Shown: one piece after another, positions 10,586-63,508 of the stretch | Numbering within the stretch: position 1 is the stretch's first letter | Layout: every line of letters begins with the position of its first letter | Assembly: GCF_900128475.1 (NCBI RefSeq) | Contig: NZ_LT635834.1 | Coordinates: 63,333-127,332, forward strand | Length of the DNA: 64,000 bases | Reading direction: 5' to 3' | Source: Mediterranea massiliensis | GTDB lineage: Bacteria > Bacteroidota > Bacteroidia > Bacteroidales > Bacteroidaceae | The notes under the pieces: generated by a model | The model's input: only the letters and a program-made list of their open reading frames with translations | Told to the model about the DNA's origin: nothing | Database searches by the model: none | Translations under genes and position numbers: made by a program

Positions 10586-11977
10586 CTACTCCCAGCCTCC
10601 GCCGAGGGCCTTGTAGAGGTTGATCATCGTGATGCGCTTGTCGCGCACGGCGTTGCTCAGGCTGAGCTGGGCGTCGAAGTAAGTACGCTGGGCGTCGAGC
10701 AGGTCGATGTAGCCGATGGCACCATTGACATACTGCAACTGAGCCAGTTCGAGCGTCGTCTTGGCCGCCTGTTCCAGTCGGAGGCGGGTATCATAAATGT
10801 CCTTTATCTTGTTGAACTCCGTAATAGCATTATAAGCATCCTTGAAGGCACTGAGCACAGCCTTCTCGTAGGCGTACGTGGCACGCTCGAAAGCGGCCTT
10901 CTGAGCCTTGAGGCGGGCACGGTTCTTGCCCATGGCGAAGATGGGTTCCAGGAGTGTGGCCGAGAAGAGGTGGTAGGGAGACTTCAAGATGTCACCCAGT
11001 TCGCCGCTCTCGCTTCCTGCCGTAGCAGTGAGCGCAATGCGGGGGAAGAGGGCGGTGAAGGCCATGCCCACCTGCGCATTGGCGGCAATGAGTTCCTGTT
11101 CGGCCTGACGCACGTCGGGACGGCGTTCCAGCAGGGTGCTTGGCATACCCACAGGTAGGGCATCAGGCAGCTGTACATCTGCCGCCTGACTGGCACGGGC
11201 GATGCTGTGGGGATATTCACCCGTCAAGAAAGCCAGTTCGTTTTCCTTGAGCGTAATCTTGCGTTCGAGGTCGGGCACGAGGGTCACGGTCTTGGCCAAT
11301 TCCACCTGCGCCTGGCGAAGAGGAATTTCGGAGATAAGTCCGGCTTCGCGACGCAGACGCACCAGATGGAGGCTCTCGCGGCGGGCTTCAACGGTCTGAC
11401 GCACGATGGCCAGCTCGTTGTCCAACGCCACCAGCTCGAAATAAGCTTGCGCCACCTGGGCGATAAGACTCATCTGCAAGGCACGCCGGTTCTCGATGGA
11501 ACCCATGAAGTCGGCCAGGCTCTTGTCGCGCGCCCAGCGCAGGTTGCCCCACAGGTCGAGCTCCCACGTGGCCGATGCCTTGATGCCGAACTCATCGCTG
11601 TTCTTGGGGTTGTCACCGCCGTAATTCTCGCGCTCGGGCTCAAGGTAAACCTTGGCCCCCACTTGCGGGAACATGTTAGCCACATCGATACGCTTCAGTG
11701 CGGCCAGCTCCTTGACGCGGGCGGCCGACATCTGCATGTCCTTGTTATACTCCAGCGTCTTGCGGATGAGCCCCTGCAGCAGGGTATCGGTGTAGAGTTC
11801 CTCCCACGAACGGTCGGCAATAGAGGCCGAATCCTCGGCCGTCTGGCTACCCAGCGTCGTGGGCAGGACCAATTCCGGTCGTGTATAGTGCTTGCCCAGC
11901 TGGCATCCGGCCAATAATAGTACCACAGCGGCCAGCACGCCCGTCATATATATCGTTCGTCTAAGCATCTTCATCAT
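10586..11977 (-). CDS. RND efflux outer-membrane factor (OprM/NodT family lipoprotein)
   Basis: 463 residues with a lipoprotein signal peptide ending at the lipobox LLAGC (Cys near residue 25) and two repeats of the TolC-like outer membrane efflux domain. Family features are RSWEELYTD near the mature N terminus, the long helical stretch with NKDMQMSAARVKEL, and the GYIDLLDAQRTYFDAQLSLS motif near the C terminus. It forms the outer-membrane exit duct of the tripartite pump encoded by the two genes upstream. Its start overlaps the pump stop by 4 bp, so it is translationally coupled in the operon. Drug substrates are not predictable. Confidence 0.93.
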   Translation of the reverse strand: MMKMLRRTIYMTGVLAAVVLLLAGCQLGKHYTRPELVLPTTLGSQTAEDSASIADRSWEELYTDTLLQGLIRKTLEYNKDMQMSAARVKELAALKRIDVANMFPQVGAKVYLEPERENYGGDNPKNSDEFGIKASATWELDLWGNLRWARDKSLADFMGSIENRRALQMSLIAQVAQAYFELVALDNELAIVRQTVEARRESLHLVRLRREAGLISEIPLRQAQVELAKTVTLVPDLERKITLKENELAFLTGEYPHSIARASQAADVQLPDALPVGMPSTLLERRPDVRQAEQELIAANAQVGMAFTALFPRIALTATAGSESGELGDILKSPYHLFSATLLEPIFAMGKNRARLKAQKAAFERATYAYEKAVLSAFKDAYNAITEFNKIKDIYDTRLRLEQAAKTTLELAQLQYVNGAIGYIDLLDAQRTYFDAQLSLSNAVRDKRITMINLYKALGGGWE

Positions 11978-14900
11978 TTTTTTCTTTTAAAGAGTTGTAC
12001 GTTCAGTTTGCGGGTACGCATCCGGGCCTTCACCTTGTAAATCATCACGAAGAAGAAGGGCACCAGCAAAATGCCGACCGTAACGGCCACAATCATACCG
12101 AAGAACACGCCTGTACCGATGGCCTGTCGGCTGGCCGAACCCGGTCCCGAAGCCAACACCATGGGCAGCATACCGAGGATGAAGGCCAGTGACGTCATCA
12201 GGATGGGGCGGAAGCGCAGGTGCGCCGCATGCAGGGCCGACTCTACCAGGTCGCCACCCTTGTCTACCTCGTCCTTGGCAAACTCCACGATAAGGATGGC
12301 ATTCTTGGCAGCCAGACCGATGAGCATCACCAGACCGATCTGGAAATAGGTATCGTTCTCGAGCCCGCAGATGGAAATACCCGCATAGGCACCCAGCACG
12401 GCGATGGGCAGGGAAATGAGCACGGCGATGGGCACGCTCCAGCTTTCATAGAGGGCTGCCAGGAAGAGGAACACAAAGAGGAACACCAGTCCCAGAATGA
12501 GTCCCGTCTGTCCGCCCGCCTGTTTCTCCTGATAGGACAGGCCGCTCCACTCCACGCCGATGTTGTCAGGCAGACGGTCGCGGGCGATGCGCTCGAGCAG
12601 TTCCATCACCTGTCCGGAGCTGGCTCCACTGGCTGCCGTACCACGGATGACGGCGGCGTTGAACATATTGAAACGCTTGATGCTGCCCGGGCCGGTGGTG
12701 TACTCCGTCGTGCCAAGCGAGGTAAGCGGAATCATGTCGCCATCGCTGCCACGCACAAAGTAGAGGCCGATGTTGTCGCGATGCTCACGGTAGGGAGCCT
12801 CAGCCTGCAGGTAGACGCGGTAGACACGGTTGAACATGTTGAAGTCGTTCACGTAAACCGAACCCGTATAGGCCTTCATCGTCGAAAAGACATCGGCCAT
12901 GGGTACACCCGAAAGCTTCACCTTGTCGCGGTCCACGTCGAAGTAGAGTTGCGGGATATCGGCCTGCAACGAGGACGAAAGTCCTTCAATCTCCTTGCAT
13001 TGCGAAGCATAGTACATCAGCGTGTCGGTGGCGCGCACCAGGTCGTCGAAGGTAGCGTCGCCACGTGCCTCGAGCTGCATCTCGAATCCGCCCGACGTAC
13101 CCAAGCCGGGGATGACCGGCGGGGTGGACAGGTAGACCTTGCACTCGGGATATTCACTGATTTCGCGGCGGACGGTCTCCATCACCTCGTCGATAGTGGT
13201 GTTGTCGCGCTCCTCCCAAGGTTTCATAATGACGGTCAGCTGGCTGCGCGCCTGGCTGGTGCCCACACGCGGACTGGAACCTGTCACGTTCTGTACATAC
13301 TCCACTTCAGGCTGTTGCATCAGGAAGGCGATGGCACGCTCGGTCACGTTACGGGTACGCTCCAGCGTAGCGCTCTCGGGCAACTCCAGCTCGACGGTAA
13401 AGTAGCCCTGGTCTTCGACGGGCAGGAAGCTGGTGGGCGTAAAGCGGTGCAGGATGAAGATGCACAACAGGCCGATGCAGAAGTACATGGCGATGCGGCG
13501 CGGATGCTTCACAGTGCTGCCGATAATCTTAACGTATTTTGCGTTGCCAATGGCCAGCCACTTGTTGATAAAGGCAAATACCCGGTTCTTGGGCTTATTG
13601 GAATCCTCGGGTTTCAGGATGAGCGAACACATCACAGGGCTCAGGGTCAATGCCACGACGGTGGACAAGAGTACCGATACTACGATGGTCACCGTGAATT
13701 GGCGATAGAGCTGGCCCGTAATGCCCGGCAAGAAGCTAACCGGCACGAATACCGCCGCCAGCACGAGTGACGTGGCGATGATAGCGCCCACCAGTCCGTT
13801 CATGGCCTTCTTGGTGGCTTCATAAGGACTGAGGTGTTCCTCCTCCATGATGCGCTCCACGTTCTCGACCACCACAATGGCATCGTCCACCACAATACCG
13901 ATGGCCAGTACCAGACCAAGCAAAGTCAGGATGTTCAGCGAGAAGCCGAAGATGAGCATGAAGCCGAAGGTACCGATCAGCGAAATGGGTACTGCCACCA
14001 CGGGAATGAGCGTGGCACGCCAGCTCTGCAACGACAGGTAGACTACCACAATCACGAGGAACAGGGCTTCGAACAGCGTCTTGTACACCTCGTGGATGGA
14101 CTCGTTGATGTAAGTGGTCATGTCGAACGGGATTTCATACTCCAATCCTTCGGGGAAGTTGGCGCTGATTTCCTTCATGGTCTTCTTGACGTTCTCGGCC
14201 ACCTCCATGGCGTTGGCGCCGGGCAGCATGTAGAGCCCCAGCACAGCGGCATTGCCGGCATTGATACCACTCTCGGTATTATAGGACTGCGCTTCCAGCG
14301 AAATGCGGGCCACGTCGCGCAGGCGGATCAGCGAACCGTCGGCATTGGCACGCAATACGATTTCCTCGAACTGGGAAGCCGACGACAGACGTCCCTGCGC
14401 CGTGATGGGGATAGTGATGTCGAGCCCCGTCACAGGCTGCTGCCCCAGGACACCGGCCGCCGACTCGCGGTTCTGGTCCTTCAAGGCATCCTGCACGTCC
14501 TTCACCGTCAGGCCGTAGTTGGCCAGACGGGCGGGGTCTACCCATATCTGCATGGCGTAGTAACGGCTTCCGATGTTGGACACACGCCCCACGCCGGGGA
14601 TACGCCGCAAGAGGTCGAGCACATTCAGGGTGGCAAAGTTACTCAGATAGATTTCATCGAACTTGGGGTCGTCCGACGTCAGGCAGATGGTCATCAGCTG
14701 GCTGGGCGACTGCTTGTCCACCTCGATGCCGTTCTGCACCACTTCGGCGGGCAGACGCGACTCGGCCAGCTTGATGCGGTTCTGTATCTCGACGGCGGCC
14801 AGGTCGGGGTCGGCTGAGATGTCGAAAGTGACGGTAGCCGAGAAGCCTCCCGTGTTGGAACTGGTAGACTCCATGTAGAGCATGCCCGGCGTACCGTTGA

Positions 14901-15108
14901 GTTCCTGCTCGATGGGGGTGGCCACGGCCTGCGACACGGTGACGGCACTGGCGCCCGGATAGGAAGCCGAGATTTTCACCACAGGCGGCGTTATCTGAGG
15001 ATACTGGTCGATGGGGAGCATCATCAGGCCGATGATACCCACAATGACAATCAATATGGAGATGACGGCCGAGAATATCGGTCTGTCTATAAAGAAATTA
15101 ACTTTCAT
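11974..15108 (-). CDS. RND multidrug efflux permease (HAE1/AcrB family)
   Basis: 1044 residues, the full length of AcrB-type pumps: an N-terminal span (FFIDRPIFSAVISILIVIVG), two large periplasmic loops, and twelve spans in two halves. Proton-relay acidic residues are visible in GIVVDDAIVVVENVER (TM4) and the second half has GLAAKNAILIVEFAKD. HAE1 marks in the porter domain include GTPGMLYMESTSSNTGG and, in loop 1, PGANAMEVAENVKKTM. It exports hydrophobic or amphiphilic compounds using the proton gradient. It is the middle gene of the three-gene operon, 48 bp after the adaptor gene. Confidence 0.96.
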   Translation of the reverse strand: MKVNFFIDRPIFSAVISILIVIVGIIGLMMLPIDQYPQITPPVVKISASYPGASAVTVSQAVATPIEQELNGTPGMLYMESTSSNTGGFSATVTFDISADPDLAAVEIQNRIKLAESRLPAEVVQNGIEVDKQSPSQLMTICLTSDDPKFDEIYLSNFATLNVLDLLRRIPGVGRVSNIGSRYYAMQIWVDPARLANYGLTVKDVQDALKDQNRESAAGVLGQQPVTGLDITIPITAQGRLSSASQFEEIVLRANADGSLIRLRDVARISLEAQSYNTESGINAGNAAVLGLYMLPGANAMEVAENVKKTMKEISANFPEGLEYEIPFDMTTYINESIHEVYKTLFEALFLVIVVVYLSLQSWRATLIPVVAVPISLIGTFGFMLIFGFSLNILTLLGLVLAIGIVVDDAIVVVENVERIMEEEHLSPYEATKKAMNGLVGAIIATSLVLAAVFVPVSFLPGITGQLYRQFTVTIVVSVLLSTVVALTLSPVMCSLILKPEDSNKPKNRVFAFINKWLAIGNAKYVKIIGSTVKHPRRIAMYFCIGLLCIFILHRFTPTSFLPVEDQGYFTVELELPESATLERTRNVTERAIAFLMQQPEVEYVQNVTGSSPRVGTSQARSQLTVIMKPWEERDNTTIDEVMETVRREISEYPECKVYLSTPPVIPGLGTSGGFEMQLEARGDATFDDLVRATDTLMYYASQCKEIEGLSSSLQADIPQLYFDVDRDKVKLSGVPMADVFSTMKAYTGSVYVNDFNMFNRVYRVYLQAEAPYREHRDNIGLYFVRGSDGDMIPLTSLGTTEYTTGPGSIKRFNMFNAAVIRGTAASGASSGQVMELLERIARDRLPDNIGVEWSGLSYQEKQAGGQTGLILGLVFLFVFLFLAALYESWSVPIAVLISLPIAVLGAYAGISICGLENDTYFQIGLVMLIGLAAKNAILIVEFAKDEVDKGGDLVESALHAAHLRFRPILMTSLAFILGMLPMVLASGPGSASRQAIGTGVFFGMIVAVTVGILLVPFFFVMIYKVKARMRTRKLNVQLFKRKK

Positions 15109-15156: not shown

Positions 15157-16341
15157 TTATTCTTCTGTACCCTCTACTTCGGTCGGCTTGCCCACCCGCA
15201 CCTTCATGCCAGGGGTCAGCTTGTGGTAACCTTCGGTCACGATGTTCTCGCCGGGCACGATACCACGTTCCACCACGACGTTGTTGCCAAACTCGGGACC
15301 CAGCTCGATGAAGCGGCGCTCCACGGTAGAGTCGCGGCGCATGACGTAGACGTGCGCACCACCTTTCTCAATCATCAGAGCCTTCTGGGGTACGACGGTG
15401 GCATGCTCACGCACGTCGAGCAGTACACGTACCTTGGTGAACTGGCCAGGCAAAAGCACGCGGTCGGGGTTGGGCATCTCGGCACGAACGGAGAAAGTTC
15501 CCGTCTTGGGATTGACCTGCGGCTCGGCAAAATCCACTATACCTTTATATATATACTGGCTGTTGTCGGGCAGGGTGATGGTAACCGTAGGCTGCCAAGA
15601 ACGGGTCGAGTCCTTCTGGCCAATGACCACGTTGCGTTCCTTGCCCTTCAGATAATCGAGGGCCGTCATGCTGAAGTCCACCAGCACCGTGTCGCTCTTG
15701 ACAATGGTGGCCAGCAACGACTTTCCGCTGGTACCCACCAGCGTACCGAGGTCGACGTGACGTTCGCTGATGTGGCCCGAAATCGGAGAACGCACCCACG
15801 TGTAGCCCAGTTCCTGTTCAGCCTGGTCAAGGTCAGCCTGGCTCATGCCCATGCTGGCCACAGCCGTCTCGTAGGCAGCAATGGCGTTATCCCGGTCGAG
15901 CTGGCTGGCCGCGTTCTGCTCAAACAAGGGACGGATACGCTCCAGGTCGCGTTTGGTCTTGCGCACCTGAGCCGAGTCCTTGCGAAGCTGGGCACGTGCC
16001 TTGTCGGCCTTGGCGCGGTACTGCTTCTGGTCGATGACGAACAACACCTGATTCTTCGTCACATACGTACCCTCTTCGAAAGCCATGCTCTCCAGAAAGC
16101 CTTCGACACGCGCACGCACTTCGACGAACTGCTGGGCACGGATGCGGCCCACATAGTCGCCGTATATCTCGACATCGTCCTGGCCGACGGGTTCCACCAC
16201 CACTACGGGAGGGATGGGCTCGACCTTCTTCGGCCAAGTCACCACGATATAGATGCCCAGCAGCACTGCCATGCATACCACCATCGTCACCAGTCTTTTC
16301 TTTCTCAGCTTTAATTCCTTCTTCGTAAAAAATAGTCTCAT
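15157..16341 (-). CDS. RND periplasmic adaptor (membrane fusion protein, AcrA/MexA family)
   Basis: 394 residues with an N-terminal membrane anchor (about residues 16-36) and the family order: beta-barrel and lipoyl half-domains, a helical hairpin with alternating charged residues (about 110-175), the second lipoyl half YTWVRSPISGHISERHVDLGTLV, then the beta-barrel and membrane-proximal domains. The first span is not followed by a lipobox, so it is anchored by the span itself. It is the first gene of the operon and bridges the pump to the outer-membrane duct. No adjacent regulator gene is present; the Crp-family gene is 14 kb away and not linked. Confidence 0.93.
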   Translation of the reverse strand: MRLFFTKKELKLRKKRLVTMVVCMAVLLGIYIVVTWPKKVEPIPPVVVVEPVGQDDVEIYGDYVGRIRAQQFVEVRARVEGFLESMAFEEGTYVTKNQVLFVIDQKQYRAKADKARAQLRKDSAQVRKTKRDLERIRPLFEQNAASQLDRDNAIAAYETAVASMGMSQADLDQAEQELGYTWVRSPISGHISERHVDLGTLVGTSGKSLLATIVKSDTVLVDFSMTALDYLKGKERNVVIGQKDSTRSWQPTVTITLPDNSQYIYKGIVDFAEPQVNPKTGTFSVRAEMPNPDRVLLPGQFTKVRVLLDVREHATVVPQKALMIEKGGAHVYVMRRDSTVERRFIELGPEFGNNVVVERGIVPGENIVTEGYHKLTPGMKVRVGKPTEVEGTEE

Positions 16342-16395: not shown

Positions 16396-16579
16396 ATACC
16401 ATTTTTCCAATTTTCCACCATAAACCGGCGTAACCGTTTAATTTTCAATAGAAAAACTTTCCCGTCTGCAATCTCGCGGAAGCCCTTCAGACGGCCCGCC
16501 CTGTAGAAAGCATCTACAAACTTGTAGAAATATTCCACACCCTCGGCCCGCCGCACTTCCCCAACGCCCTGCCGACAAA

Positions 16580-16943
16580 ATGACACTTTGATTTTCCAAC
16601 CGCCCGAGAATCGCTTCTTTCCGCCCCAAGTCAAGGCCGATGGGAAAGAACGAAGAGCCGGAAGGCTTACACGCTCGCACACAGCCGGATAGCGAAATCC
16701 TTACATTTGAAATAGAAGTTTCATCCTCCCCAAACGAAGAAAAAACCGCGGGAAACCGATGAAAAACCGACAAAGCGACCCTTCGTCGAACGAAAAGCAG
16801 GCACTTTCCGAGCGAAAAGCGGCGTTTTTCCCAAAGAAAACCTACGTTCTGACGACTGGATACCTACGATCTGACGACAGAAAACCTACAATCAGGCAGC
16901 AAAAAGCCTGCTTTTTAACCCCTCAGAAGCCGGCATTTCCTCC
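16580..16943. repeat. Composite dispersed element, copy A
   Basis: A conserved block of about 43 bp (from 16580, TGACACTTTGATTTTCCAA onward) is followed at +108 by the word ATAGCGAAAT and at +187 by a 22-bp array. Copy B at 62907 has the same parts at +108 and +189. Most of the 1021-bp gap between the RND operon and gapA is this element plus the gapA leader; short frames in it have no recognisable product. Confidence 0.75.
16768..16943. repeat. 22-bp-period array in dispersed element copy A (8 units)
   Basis: Units begin at 16768, 16790, 16812, 16834, 16856, 16878, 16900 and 16922, each exactly 22 bp apart, with related words such as CGAAAAGC, AGAAAACCTACG and CTGACGAC. ATCTGACGACAGAAAACCTA is shared exactly with the array at 63.2 kb. 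Confidence 0.85.
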
Positions 16944-17269
16944 GTTTCCGCCTCCAGTTTCTTCCTTTCATGCAAGGAGCCTGTCAGCAAAAACAGCCCA
17001 TTTACATCTATCTGTCAACAAAACCAAGAAAACAGACAACAGAATGACAATCCGCCCTTCCGGCTATTCTTCGCCAGAAGGCCCCGTTCATCGGCTTCCC
17101 AAGCATACATATATATAAAGGTGAAAAAGGAGTAATACACTCCCCTTCCACACGCTATGGATGTTCCGACAAGCCTCTTTTAACGATAAATAACCCTAAC
17201 GGGGGCCTTGGAATGAAAAAAAAGGAAAAATTAAACCTACACGATATACCAACATACAAAACAATTTCG

Positions 17270-17341: not shown

Positions 17342-18373
<1,032 letters not shown>

Positions 18374-62362: not shown

Positions 62363-62376
62363 CTAACTCATATCCG

Positions 62377-62771
62377 TGGAGCTGGAGGGAATCGAACCCT
62401 CGTCCAAACGAGGAAATCATAAGCTTTCTACATGCTTATCTCTGCCTTCGGTTTTCGAGCACAGGCAAGACCAGAGCCACCAACCTGCACCTTATCCCCT
62501 AAAATTTCGCAAAGGCCGCGGAGAAAGACCCAAGCTATTCCCGATTTTGCTGTGCCACTTTACCAAACGCTTCGGAACAAGAGCTTTTGAGTGACATCCC
62601 GTTTCCACCACTGTGGCGGAAATAAAGCTAATCTACTGTACTTCGATTAAGCAGCGAGAGCATAATTTTCGTTGCCAGATAATTGTTTGATAACTGAGAT
62701 TAAAGTGGAAATTACCGACCCACTGCATGCTTACCTACCATTTCTGCCCGCTGTCAAATCCAGTCAACCCC
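62377..62771 (-). ncRNA. ssrA: Transfer-messenger RNA (tmRNA)
   Basis: About 395 nt on the minus strand. The tRNA-like ends pair as GGGGTTG (5', ending at 62771) with CAGCTCC (3'), next to the T-arm CGAGGGTTCGATTCCCTC. The tag frame at 62676-62647 reads GNENYALAA followed by TAA. It rescues stalled ribosomes and marks the peptide for proteolysis with SmpB. CCA is not encoded. Pseudoknot regions lie between, and the transcript is continuous rather than two-piece. Confidence 0.95.
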
Positions 62772-62906: not shown

Positions 62907-63250
62907 CTGACACTTTGATTTTCCAAACGCCGGAGAATCGCTTCTTTCGGACCGCAGGCAGAGGCGGACGGAAACGGCAAAGGCGGAAACAGCTTATCCG
63001 TTCACCATCAACAAAATAGCGAAATGTTTACAAACAAACCAGAAAGAAAAAGGAGGGAAAAAGACACGATGAGGGGTGAAAAACGGCACAACTGAGCAGC
63101 GGGAAGGCCTCGCCCGGCAGAAAACATTGCTTTTTCCGACAGAAAGCATACGTTTTCCCGACTCAAAACATACCATCTGACGACAGAAAACCTACGACCA
63201 GCCGCACGAAAACCTGCATTTTTATGCCCAATCTGCTCGTTTTATGCATC
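62907..63250. repeat. Composite dispersed element, copy B
   Basis: Homologous to the element at 16580: the opening block (TGACACTTTGATTTTCCAA and the following GAGAATCGCTTCTTT) is about 90 percent identical over 43 bp, ATAGCGAAAT recurs at +108 exactly as in copy A, and the 22-bp array begins at about +189. It takes up much of the 768-bp gap between ssrA and the GH3 gene; no gene is seen in that gap. Confidence 0.75.
63097..63250. repeat. 22-bp-period array in dispersed element copy B (7 units)
   Basis: Units at 63097, 63119, 63141, 63163, 63185, 63207 and 63229, exactly 22 bp apart, with AGAAAACATT, AGAAAGCATA, TCAAAACATA, AGAAAACCTA and CGAAAACCTG openings. Confidence 0.85.
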
Positions 63251-63508
63251 TATCAGCGTATATTCTTCACTTTCCGTCCTCTATTTCCATGTTTTCAAGA
63301 AAAACGGTTGTCAGCTGCAAGCGGCTTTTCCATCCATTGTGTCAGCCATCTGCCTTGACAAAGGTCAGGATGTCAAAAATCGCCGACAAGACTCCGGACG
63401 CCTCCAAGAAGACCGCCAGACAGACGGAAAACGGACAAAACCATACGTTTTGGAAAATATTGACCAACGAAACGGACGATATTACCTTCCCGTTCAAGGA
63501 AATCTGCG

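Follow-up and report, generated by a model that had tools for sequence, protein, structure and literature searches.

The window, i.e. the whole stretch of 64,000 nucleotides of Mediterranea massiliensis DNA that was analysed, contains two copies of a modular repeat element (Table 1). Copy A lies between the genes of an RND system and the divergent gapA, all confirmed by Pfam. Copy B lies between the tmRNA gene and an ORF whose first 153 residues gave no Pfam match. A preliminary description had reported the same parts in both copies; its positions were recounted by script and were correct within a base or two. Copy A may extend outwards to another TGACA at 17045-17049. Just upstream of this copy, a dyad block is found which is absent from G023 but retained in the related genomes G079, G087 and G124, including those that lack the element at this site. 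Perhaps it is an operator of the RND operon.

Table 1. Coordinates of both element copies and of neighbouring features in the window.
Feature	Position	Strand	Details
AcrB-type pump gene (RND)	11974-15108	-	
HlyD-type adaptor gene (RND)	15157-16341	-	
Dyad block	16502-16539		TGTAGAAAGC(A/C)TCTACA...TGTAGAA...TTCCACA
Copy A, head	16581..16721	+	TGACACTTTG from 16581, GAGAATCG from 16606 (+25), ATAGCGAAAT from 16689 (+108), TTACA (+120)
Copy A, inner inverted repeat, left arm GAAATAG	16709..16715	+	by eye, in part of the copies only; partner arm CTATTTC decayed in copy A, clear in some other copies
Copy A, array of about seven 22-bp units	16771..16924	+	own consensus AAAACnnnCnTTTTnnCGnnnG; begins at about +190; units from 16771, 16793, 16815, 16837, 16859, 16881, 16903, most with AAAA or AAA; lag 22 on top (0.515); based on unit starts, autocorrelation and unit model
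Copy A, tail	16925..17017	+	GTCAGC at 16983, CTGTCA at 17012-17017; exact right end uncertain
gapA	17363-18373	+	
tmRNA	62374-62771	-	
Copy B, head	62908..63048	+	TGACACTTTG at 62908, ATAGCGAAAT at 63016 (+108)
Copy B, array of five clear 22-bp units	63121..63230	+	units from 63121, 63143, 63165, 63187, 63209; lag 22 on top (0.455)
Copy B, tail	63231..63344	+	CTATTTC at 63281, GTCAGC at 63310, end TGTCA at 63340-63344
ORF right of copy B	from 63540		

Copies and geometry of the family

Copy A was compared with its own genome (3.95 Mb, 25 contigs) using BLAST, which returned 15 matching stretches in 13 places, self included. Copy B was matched with E = 7.5e-13 in the head and 4.0e-13 in the array. 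A search with a head pattern gave 10 places and none with the reversed control. With these BLAST matches and this control, the likeness of the two copies is not due to chance. A head profile built from sequence only using 28 copies (R1) recovered 15 full heads in the own genome, namely the 13 from BLAST plus two more. The element at 16581-17017 therefore has 15 copies, two of them (A and B) within the window. The preliminary description would have been refuted by two copies only, without similarity between +50 and +180. This is not the case: 13 and then all 15 copies could be aligned through the head to about +140, with sparse common positions only between +140 and +180. In the following, the own loci carry separate letters, locus I being copy B of the window.

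The own copies are about 440 bp each and lie between larger ORFs, some of which are mere mechanical calls; they are small, multicopy and intergenic, as MITEs are. Judged on mechanical ORFs and an assumed element end at +450, the tail lies within 0-43 bp of the 3’ end of an opposite-strand ORF at loci B, C, E, G, H and M. At locus D the tail slightly overlaps such an ORF, at locus F it abuts a tRNA, and the copies at loci A, I and O lie in 5’ regions; loci J, K, L and N gave no clear picture on this side.

End-to-end alignment of 13 own copies gave the order of the element: a head of about 140 bp, a variable piece, the 22-bp tandem array and a short tail. The head contains TGACACTTTG, GAGAATCG, TTTC, ATAGCGAAAT and TTACA in this order. 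Own tails contain GTCAGC or GTAAGC followed by an end such as TTTTGTCA or TTTTGATAG, and TGTCAnnnTGACA is common at left ends. By eye, short ends of the type TGTCA...TGACA or TATCA...TGATA were seen in own and G129 copies, the exact ends being uncertain. An inner inverted repeat around the array, also by eye and decayed in several copies, is GAAATAG/CTATTTC in some own copies and ATTCTAG/CTAGAAT in some copies of G024.

TGACA opens 83 of 93 heads (15 own, 78 from relatives); the others begin with TGTCA (4), TAACA (3), TTACA (2) or TGATA (1). GAGAAT (or GACAAT) at +25 was found alignment-free in 15/15 own, 8/10 G079, 6/6 G087, 2/2 G124, 18/20 G129, 16/20 G034, 19/20 G132 and 11/11 G024 copies. 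TTACA is located at +120 in 13 of the 15 own copies and at +119 in two, at +132 in 20/20 G129 and at +122 in 19/20 G132 copies; for 16/20 G034 copies, it was not found between +100 and +150.

Own tail anchors fall at 380-381 (two copies) and 400-403 (seven), with a second series at 389 (two), 411 (one) and 433 (one); steps inside each series are about 22, and no anchor was found in 2/15 copies. The anchor is missing in 8/20 G129, 8/20 G132, 13/20 G034, 4/11 G024, 3/10 G079 and 3/6 G087 copies, and some late matches in other genomes are probably spurious. For the right-end motif, the start is at 407-409 in 14/20 G129 copies (four elsewhere, two without) and at 428-430 in 13/19 G132 copies, one other at 407 being 22 shorter. 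In G034, its start is scattered from 412 to 626 (not found in 6/20). Hence, the elements of G129 and G132 hardly vary in length, and those of G034 do.

Some individual copies and flanks deviate. In one G132 copy (L234), the head continues only to about +62, followed by other sequence which includes a 22-bp array built from a different unit (top lag 22, 0.483). Six further G132 copies (L219, L221, L223, L226, L228, L231) have additional sequence in common past their right ends, as if they travelled together with a second kind of repeat. In G129, GC-rich hairpins ending in GCTAAA (L179, L186, L192) or TTAGCACA microsatellites (L182, L191) precede some copies.

In the averaged array autocorrelation, lags 22, 44 and 66 are the three highest in all five genomes analysed, i.e. 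own (15 copies), G024 (11), G129 (20), G132 (20) and G034 (20). For single copies, of which six from G034 were dropped as short or gapped, lag 22 was the single top in 12/15 own, 6/10 G079, 5/6 G087, 2/2 G124, 14/20 G129, 9/14 G034, 20/20 G132 and 9/11 G024 copies, compared to 0/45 own flank controls. Lag 22 or 44 was among the top three in 15/15, 10/10, 6/6, 2/2, 19/20, 12/14, 20/20 and 11/11 copies, respectively, and in 4/45 controls. The unit consensus differs by genome: AAAACnnnCnTTTTnnCG (own), AAAAGAnTnAnACTTTTG (G024), AAACAGTGAAnTGTTT (G129), AAGAnnGnATGTT (G132) and an ATAT/GC type (G034). A period kept while the unit sequence changes poses the question whether geometry alone is selected.

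Units show mild dyad symmetry in four of the five genomes (p = 0.003, 0.003, 0.003 and 0.013; G132, p = 0.31). One hairpin per unit is not supported, as within-unit covariation is absent in four of five genomes; the excess in G034 (z = 4.8) is probably due to two unit types being mixed. Predicted array curvature, calculated with a wedge table entered by hand, is well above shuffles in the own genome (0.405; +0.262, t = 7.6) and above shuffles in G132 (+0.092, t = 4.4), as would be expected if the element were intrinsically curved DNA with phased A-tracts serving as promoter enhancer or insulator. However, G024, G129 and G034 have no excess despite the kept 22-bp period. Conserved curvature was thus rejected as a common feature, and, the hand-entered wedge table also counting against it, curved DNA is an improbable explanation.

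Distribution and turnover

Plain BLAST of the head matched 9 of 60 genomes of the genus, and the R1 profile matched 68 of 158 at E ≤ 0.01, the own genome included in each case. As 90 of the 158 gave no R1 match under the strict filter, the element is probably dispensable for the genus. At E ≤ 0.001, R1 matches in six chosen genomes numbered 50 (G034), 39 (G148), 24 (G129), 20 (G132), 18 (G056) and 13 (G082). The exact head pattern was found in 34 stretches of titled genomes, all Bacteroides or Caecibacteroides. An order-wide search under the strict filter matched 3 of 295 genomes, own included. In G413, which belongs to another genus of the family, the GAGAATCG block is preceded, with unchanged spacing, by TGACA (two places) or TGCCA (one place), and one of the three places has 22 as its top lag; these places look like real relatives. 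The match in G311 has no 22-bp lag, and no element match was obtained in plasmids or phages by blastn at E ≤ 0.001. No description of this 22-bp repeat family was found in the literature covered, mostly papers accessible without subscription, and 11- and 10-letter pieces of the head used as literature queries gave only unrelated-looking titles among the best 10 of 144. The element is apparently a so far undescribed, non-coding modular repeat of gut Bacteroides.

For turnover, the flanks (about 300 bp left, 450 bp right) of 60 copies (20/24 of G129, 20/20 of G132 and 20/50 of G034) were compared with those of 33 own-clade copies. No flank match at E ≤ 1e-12 was found between the two sets or among the three genomes. 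The closest pairs within a genome are 93% (G129, L184/L188), 92.5% (G034, L203/L208) and 83% (own loci F/J) identical, and own paralogous heads are on average only 65% identical. The left flanks of L184 and L188 differ; to the right, both remain alike for about 75 bp beyond a GATAG motif and then differ, which may place the actual right end further outwards.

The element is present at the RND-gapA site of G079; the site measures about 770-800 bp with the element, and G087, G124 and G023 have 286, 150 and 190 bp instead. Loss in G087 is the simpler reading, since G087 is nearer to G079 by gapA (0.967). Own site J corresponds to about 90 bp without element in G087. Clean insertion borders were not obtained from the empty sites compared, which are too diverged. 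Direct repeats in the flanks of 9 G129 and 13 G132 copies, with approximate borders, were no better than permuted pairings, giving no target-site duplication, and no transposase was noticed among the ORFs ≥ 100 AA beside two cut-off G129 heads. These heads end at about +55 (L236 around 2010-2065, L237 around 2500-2560); one adjoins a helix-turn-helix gene (PF01381), and the following ORF has no Pfam match.

A non-autonomous mobile element had been one proposal of the preliminary description. As a history this is plausible in view of the lineage-unrelated insertion sets, the 93% pair with different left flanks, and presence or absence at syntenic sites; proof by a target duplication or a transposase partner was not obtained.

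The copies at own loci J (C25:307918, +) and B (C25:334166, -) are inverted to each other and about 25 kb apart. The segment between them has the same order in G087 and is inverted in G079. There, an element connects the left flank of J with the right flank of B. Close to the other end, the right flank of J is found in inverted orientation, and about 5 kb unmatched in the own genome lie between it and an element adjoining the left flank of B. Contigs of G124 have the order of G079 without the second element. This association is as expected for recombination between inverted copies, and copies at inversion ends may influence how genomes of a major gut genus are arranged.

Orthologous sites and constraint on the head

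The flanks of the 15 own loci were compared with 18 copies of relatives (10/11 of G079, 6/6 of G087 and 2/3 of G124). An orthologous copy exists at seven loci (A, B, C, D, F, K and O). Both flanks are matched at A, B, D, K and O, and at C with about 1.3 kb extra on the left in the own genome. At F, both flanks are matched in G079e (1.2 kb inserted); in G087c, which supplied the pair for the seven-locus constraint test, the match is limited to the right flank. Loci G, H and J are matched on one flank. For E, I, L, M and N, no counterpart was found among the 18 copies, save a weak 68% match beside I.

In a joint alignment, the choice of 44 core columns (≥ 85% conserved over all) was based solely on 68 heads from G024, G129, G132 and G034. 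In the seven orthologous pairs, 28 of 308 core positions differ, compared to 191 of 679 non-core positions (Fisher’s exact test, p = 2e-12). For all 15 pairs, which are not independent and include one-flank pairs, the values are 66/660 and 408/1455. The multiple alignment of the 15 pairs contains no indels. A gap-permissive aligner introduced 20 gaps vs. 217 mismatches in eight orthologous head pairs. Gaps per 100 mismatches were 9.2 in these heads, 23.4 in arrays, 31.5 in tails and 43.5 in left flanks, and reached 26.9 in own paralogous heads (105 pairs) and 52.8 in unrelated flanks. As this aligner opens gaps everywhere, the statement of no indels rests on the multiple alignment and the fixed anchors. 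With the same aligner, arrays (0.778) are no more alike than flanks (0.777), and unrelated flanks reach 0.742.

Core columns should not be spared if inserted copies decayed neutrally, and purifying selection thus appears to act on the resident heads. Remains of an extinct element which decay neutrally between genes would agree with the low average identity of own paralogous heads and with the absence of copies at syntenic sites of some relatives. The core vs. non-core difference at fixed loci and the anchor spacing, which is fixed despite divergence, make this very unlikely. Gene conversion among copies is a weaker alternative to selection, since orthologues are more alike than paralogues. That copies at orthologous sites keep the key head letters and their spacing suggests that the element is now useful to the host. 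The preliminary description had the element acting as a unit, and the fixed spacing in the 15 own and most of the relatives’ copies, together with the constraint at orthologous sites, speaks for this.

The same constraint bears on a plain MITE, i.e. a parasitic, non-autonomous transposon still mobilised in trans, whose conservation would reflect selection for mobility only. Modular structure with apparent short inverted ends, lineage-specific amplification, the left flanks of the 93% pair and an architecture like that of BrickBuilt (see below) are in its favour. However, core-specific constraint at copies which do not move is unexpected from mobility alone, and neither a target duplication nor, beside the cut-off heads, a transposase was seen. 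We regard the plain MITE as possible, with the odds against it.

Known systems and nature of the element

A non-coding RNA gene, the other proposal of the preliminary description, is not supported by the head. RNAalifold gave a consensus energy of -0.17 kcal/mol with four pairs, none covarying, and head fold z-scores on the two strands (-0.46/-0.52, 15 own copies) are like those of eight own flanks (-0.31/-0.62). Structured RNA was therefore rejected as the nature of the head. Arrays fold better than shuffles (-1.97/-2.41 in 15 own and -4.46/-3.92 in six G129 copies; flanks -0.19/-0.82), which, like the fixed spacing and the directional order of parts, would suit an RNA gene of about 450 nt. 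The excess is, however, similar on both strands, as DNA palindromes would give, and covariation within units is absent in four genomes of five. Rfam, applied at the gathering threshold to the window and the 15 own loci, gave matches to tmRNA, tRNAs and a FopS sRNA, none of them overlapping the element, and no others. Taken together, an RNA gene has little probability. The FopS sRNA (RF04319) is located at L276:691-757, about 1.2 kb before own copy J; this stretch is repeated several times in the vicinity and also at other places in G079, G087 and G124.

According to PMC4596501, the BrickBuilt MITE of Porphyromonas gingivalis (19 copies) has a non-repetitive leader and tail around 23-nt tandem units, IS5-like ends (GAGACCTTTGCA/TGCAAAGGTCTC) and a length of 84 to 991 nt; no default-BLAST DNA match is reported outside P. 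gingivalis, and homologues are reported in P. gulae. The present element shares the leader-array-tail order, apparent small inverted ends, a comparable number of copies (15 own), intergenic location and conservation of some sites in sister species (PMC4596501). It differs in its 22-bp period in all five genomes analysed, its TGTCA/TGACA-type ends and, for G129 and G132 but not for G034, a length that hardly varies. The BrickBuilt TIR GAGACCTTTGCA was found at both ends with ≤ 3 mismatches in none of the 93 copies (15 own, 78 of relatives), and at single ends matches were no better than in shuffled ends.

For BOX of Streptococcus pneumoniae, PMC3049150 describes boxA, a variable number of tandem boxB and boxC, an old proliferation with slow present insertion (about half of the insertions are common to all sequenced strains), a predicted stem-loop RNA, and TIR and TSD. 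The head, array and tail architecture and the proposed history are similar; in contrast, the present element shows neither RNA structure in its head nor a TSD. The P. gingivalis element MITE464/PgRS (PMC4596501) has 41-nt units, repetitive flanks and IS5-like ends; the present element is likewise MITE-like with internal tandem repeats, with units of 22 bp rather than 41 nt. Since it shows neither the IS5-like ends and 23-nt units known from BrickBuilt nor an RNA structure as in BOX, the element was filed as a separate variant of the BrickBuilt/BOX architecture.

We put at about even chances that the element is an old MITE-like or BOX-like repeat which was amplified separately in several lineages and is now largely resident in the own clade, its head being a DNA site for a putative protein. 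Its ends, clusters of TGTCA/TGACA-like boxes, would once have been acted on in trans by a putative recombinase or transposase, and the element would have multiplied separately in different lineages. In the own clade, about half of the copies (7/15, with three more on one flank) are resident at sites orthologous between species, and purifying selection appears to preserve their heads, which show no net change in length. The head would be a putative docking site for a DNA-binding protein, and the array may be a platform of two-turn (22-bp) units which changes by whole units via unequal exchange. Interspersed repeats are usually treated as parasites or markers; resident copies could be deleted one by one, giving a handle on what a domesticated bacterial repeat does.

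A more specific reading is that of a domesticated repeat with the head as conserved docking site and the array as iteron-like platform, where every lineage replaces the letters of the unit but keeps the 22-bp geometry (two helical turns), perhaps in step with an oligomeric binding protein that evolves fast. This we consider unlikely. If it were true, a role in chromosome organisation would fit the clustering of copies around the origin in two complete chromosomes, G056 contig C1 (18 copies, p = 0.012) and G121 contig C1 (13 copies, p = 0.048), where the origins were inferred from ten coarse GC-skew samples each and the genomes, which may share sites, are not independent.
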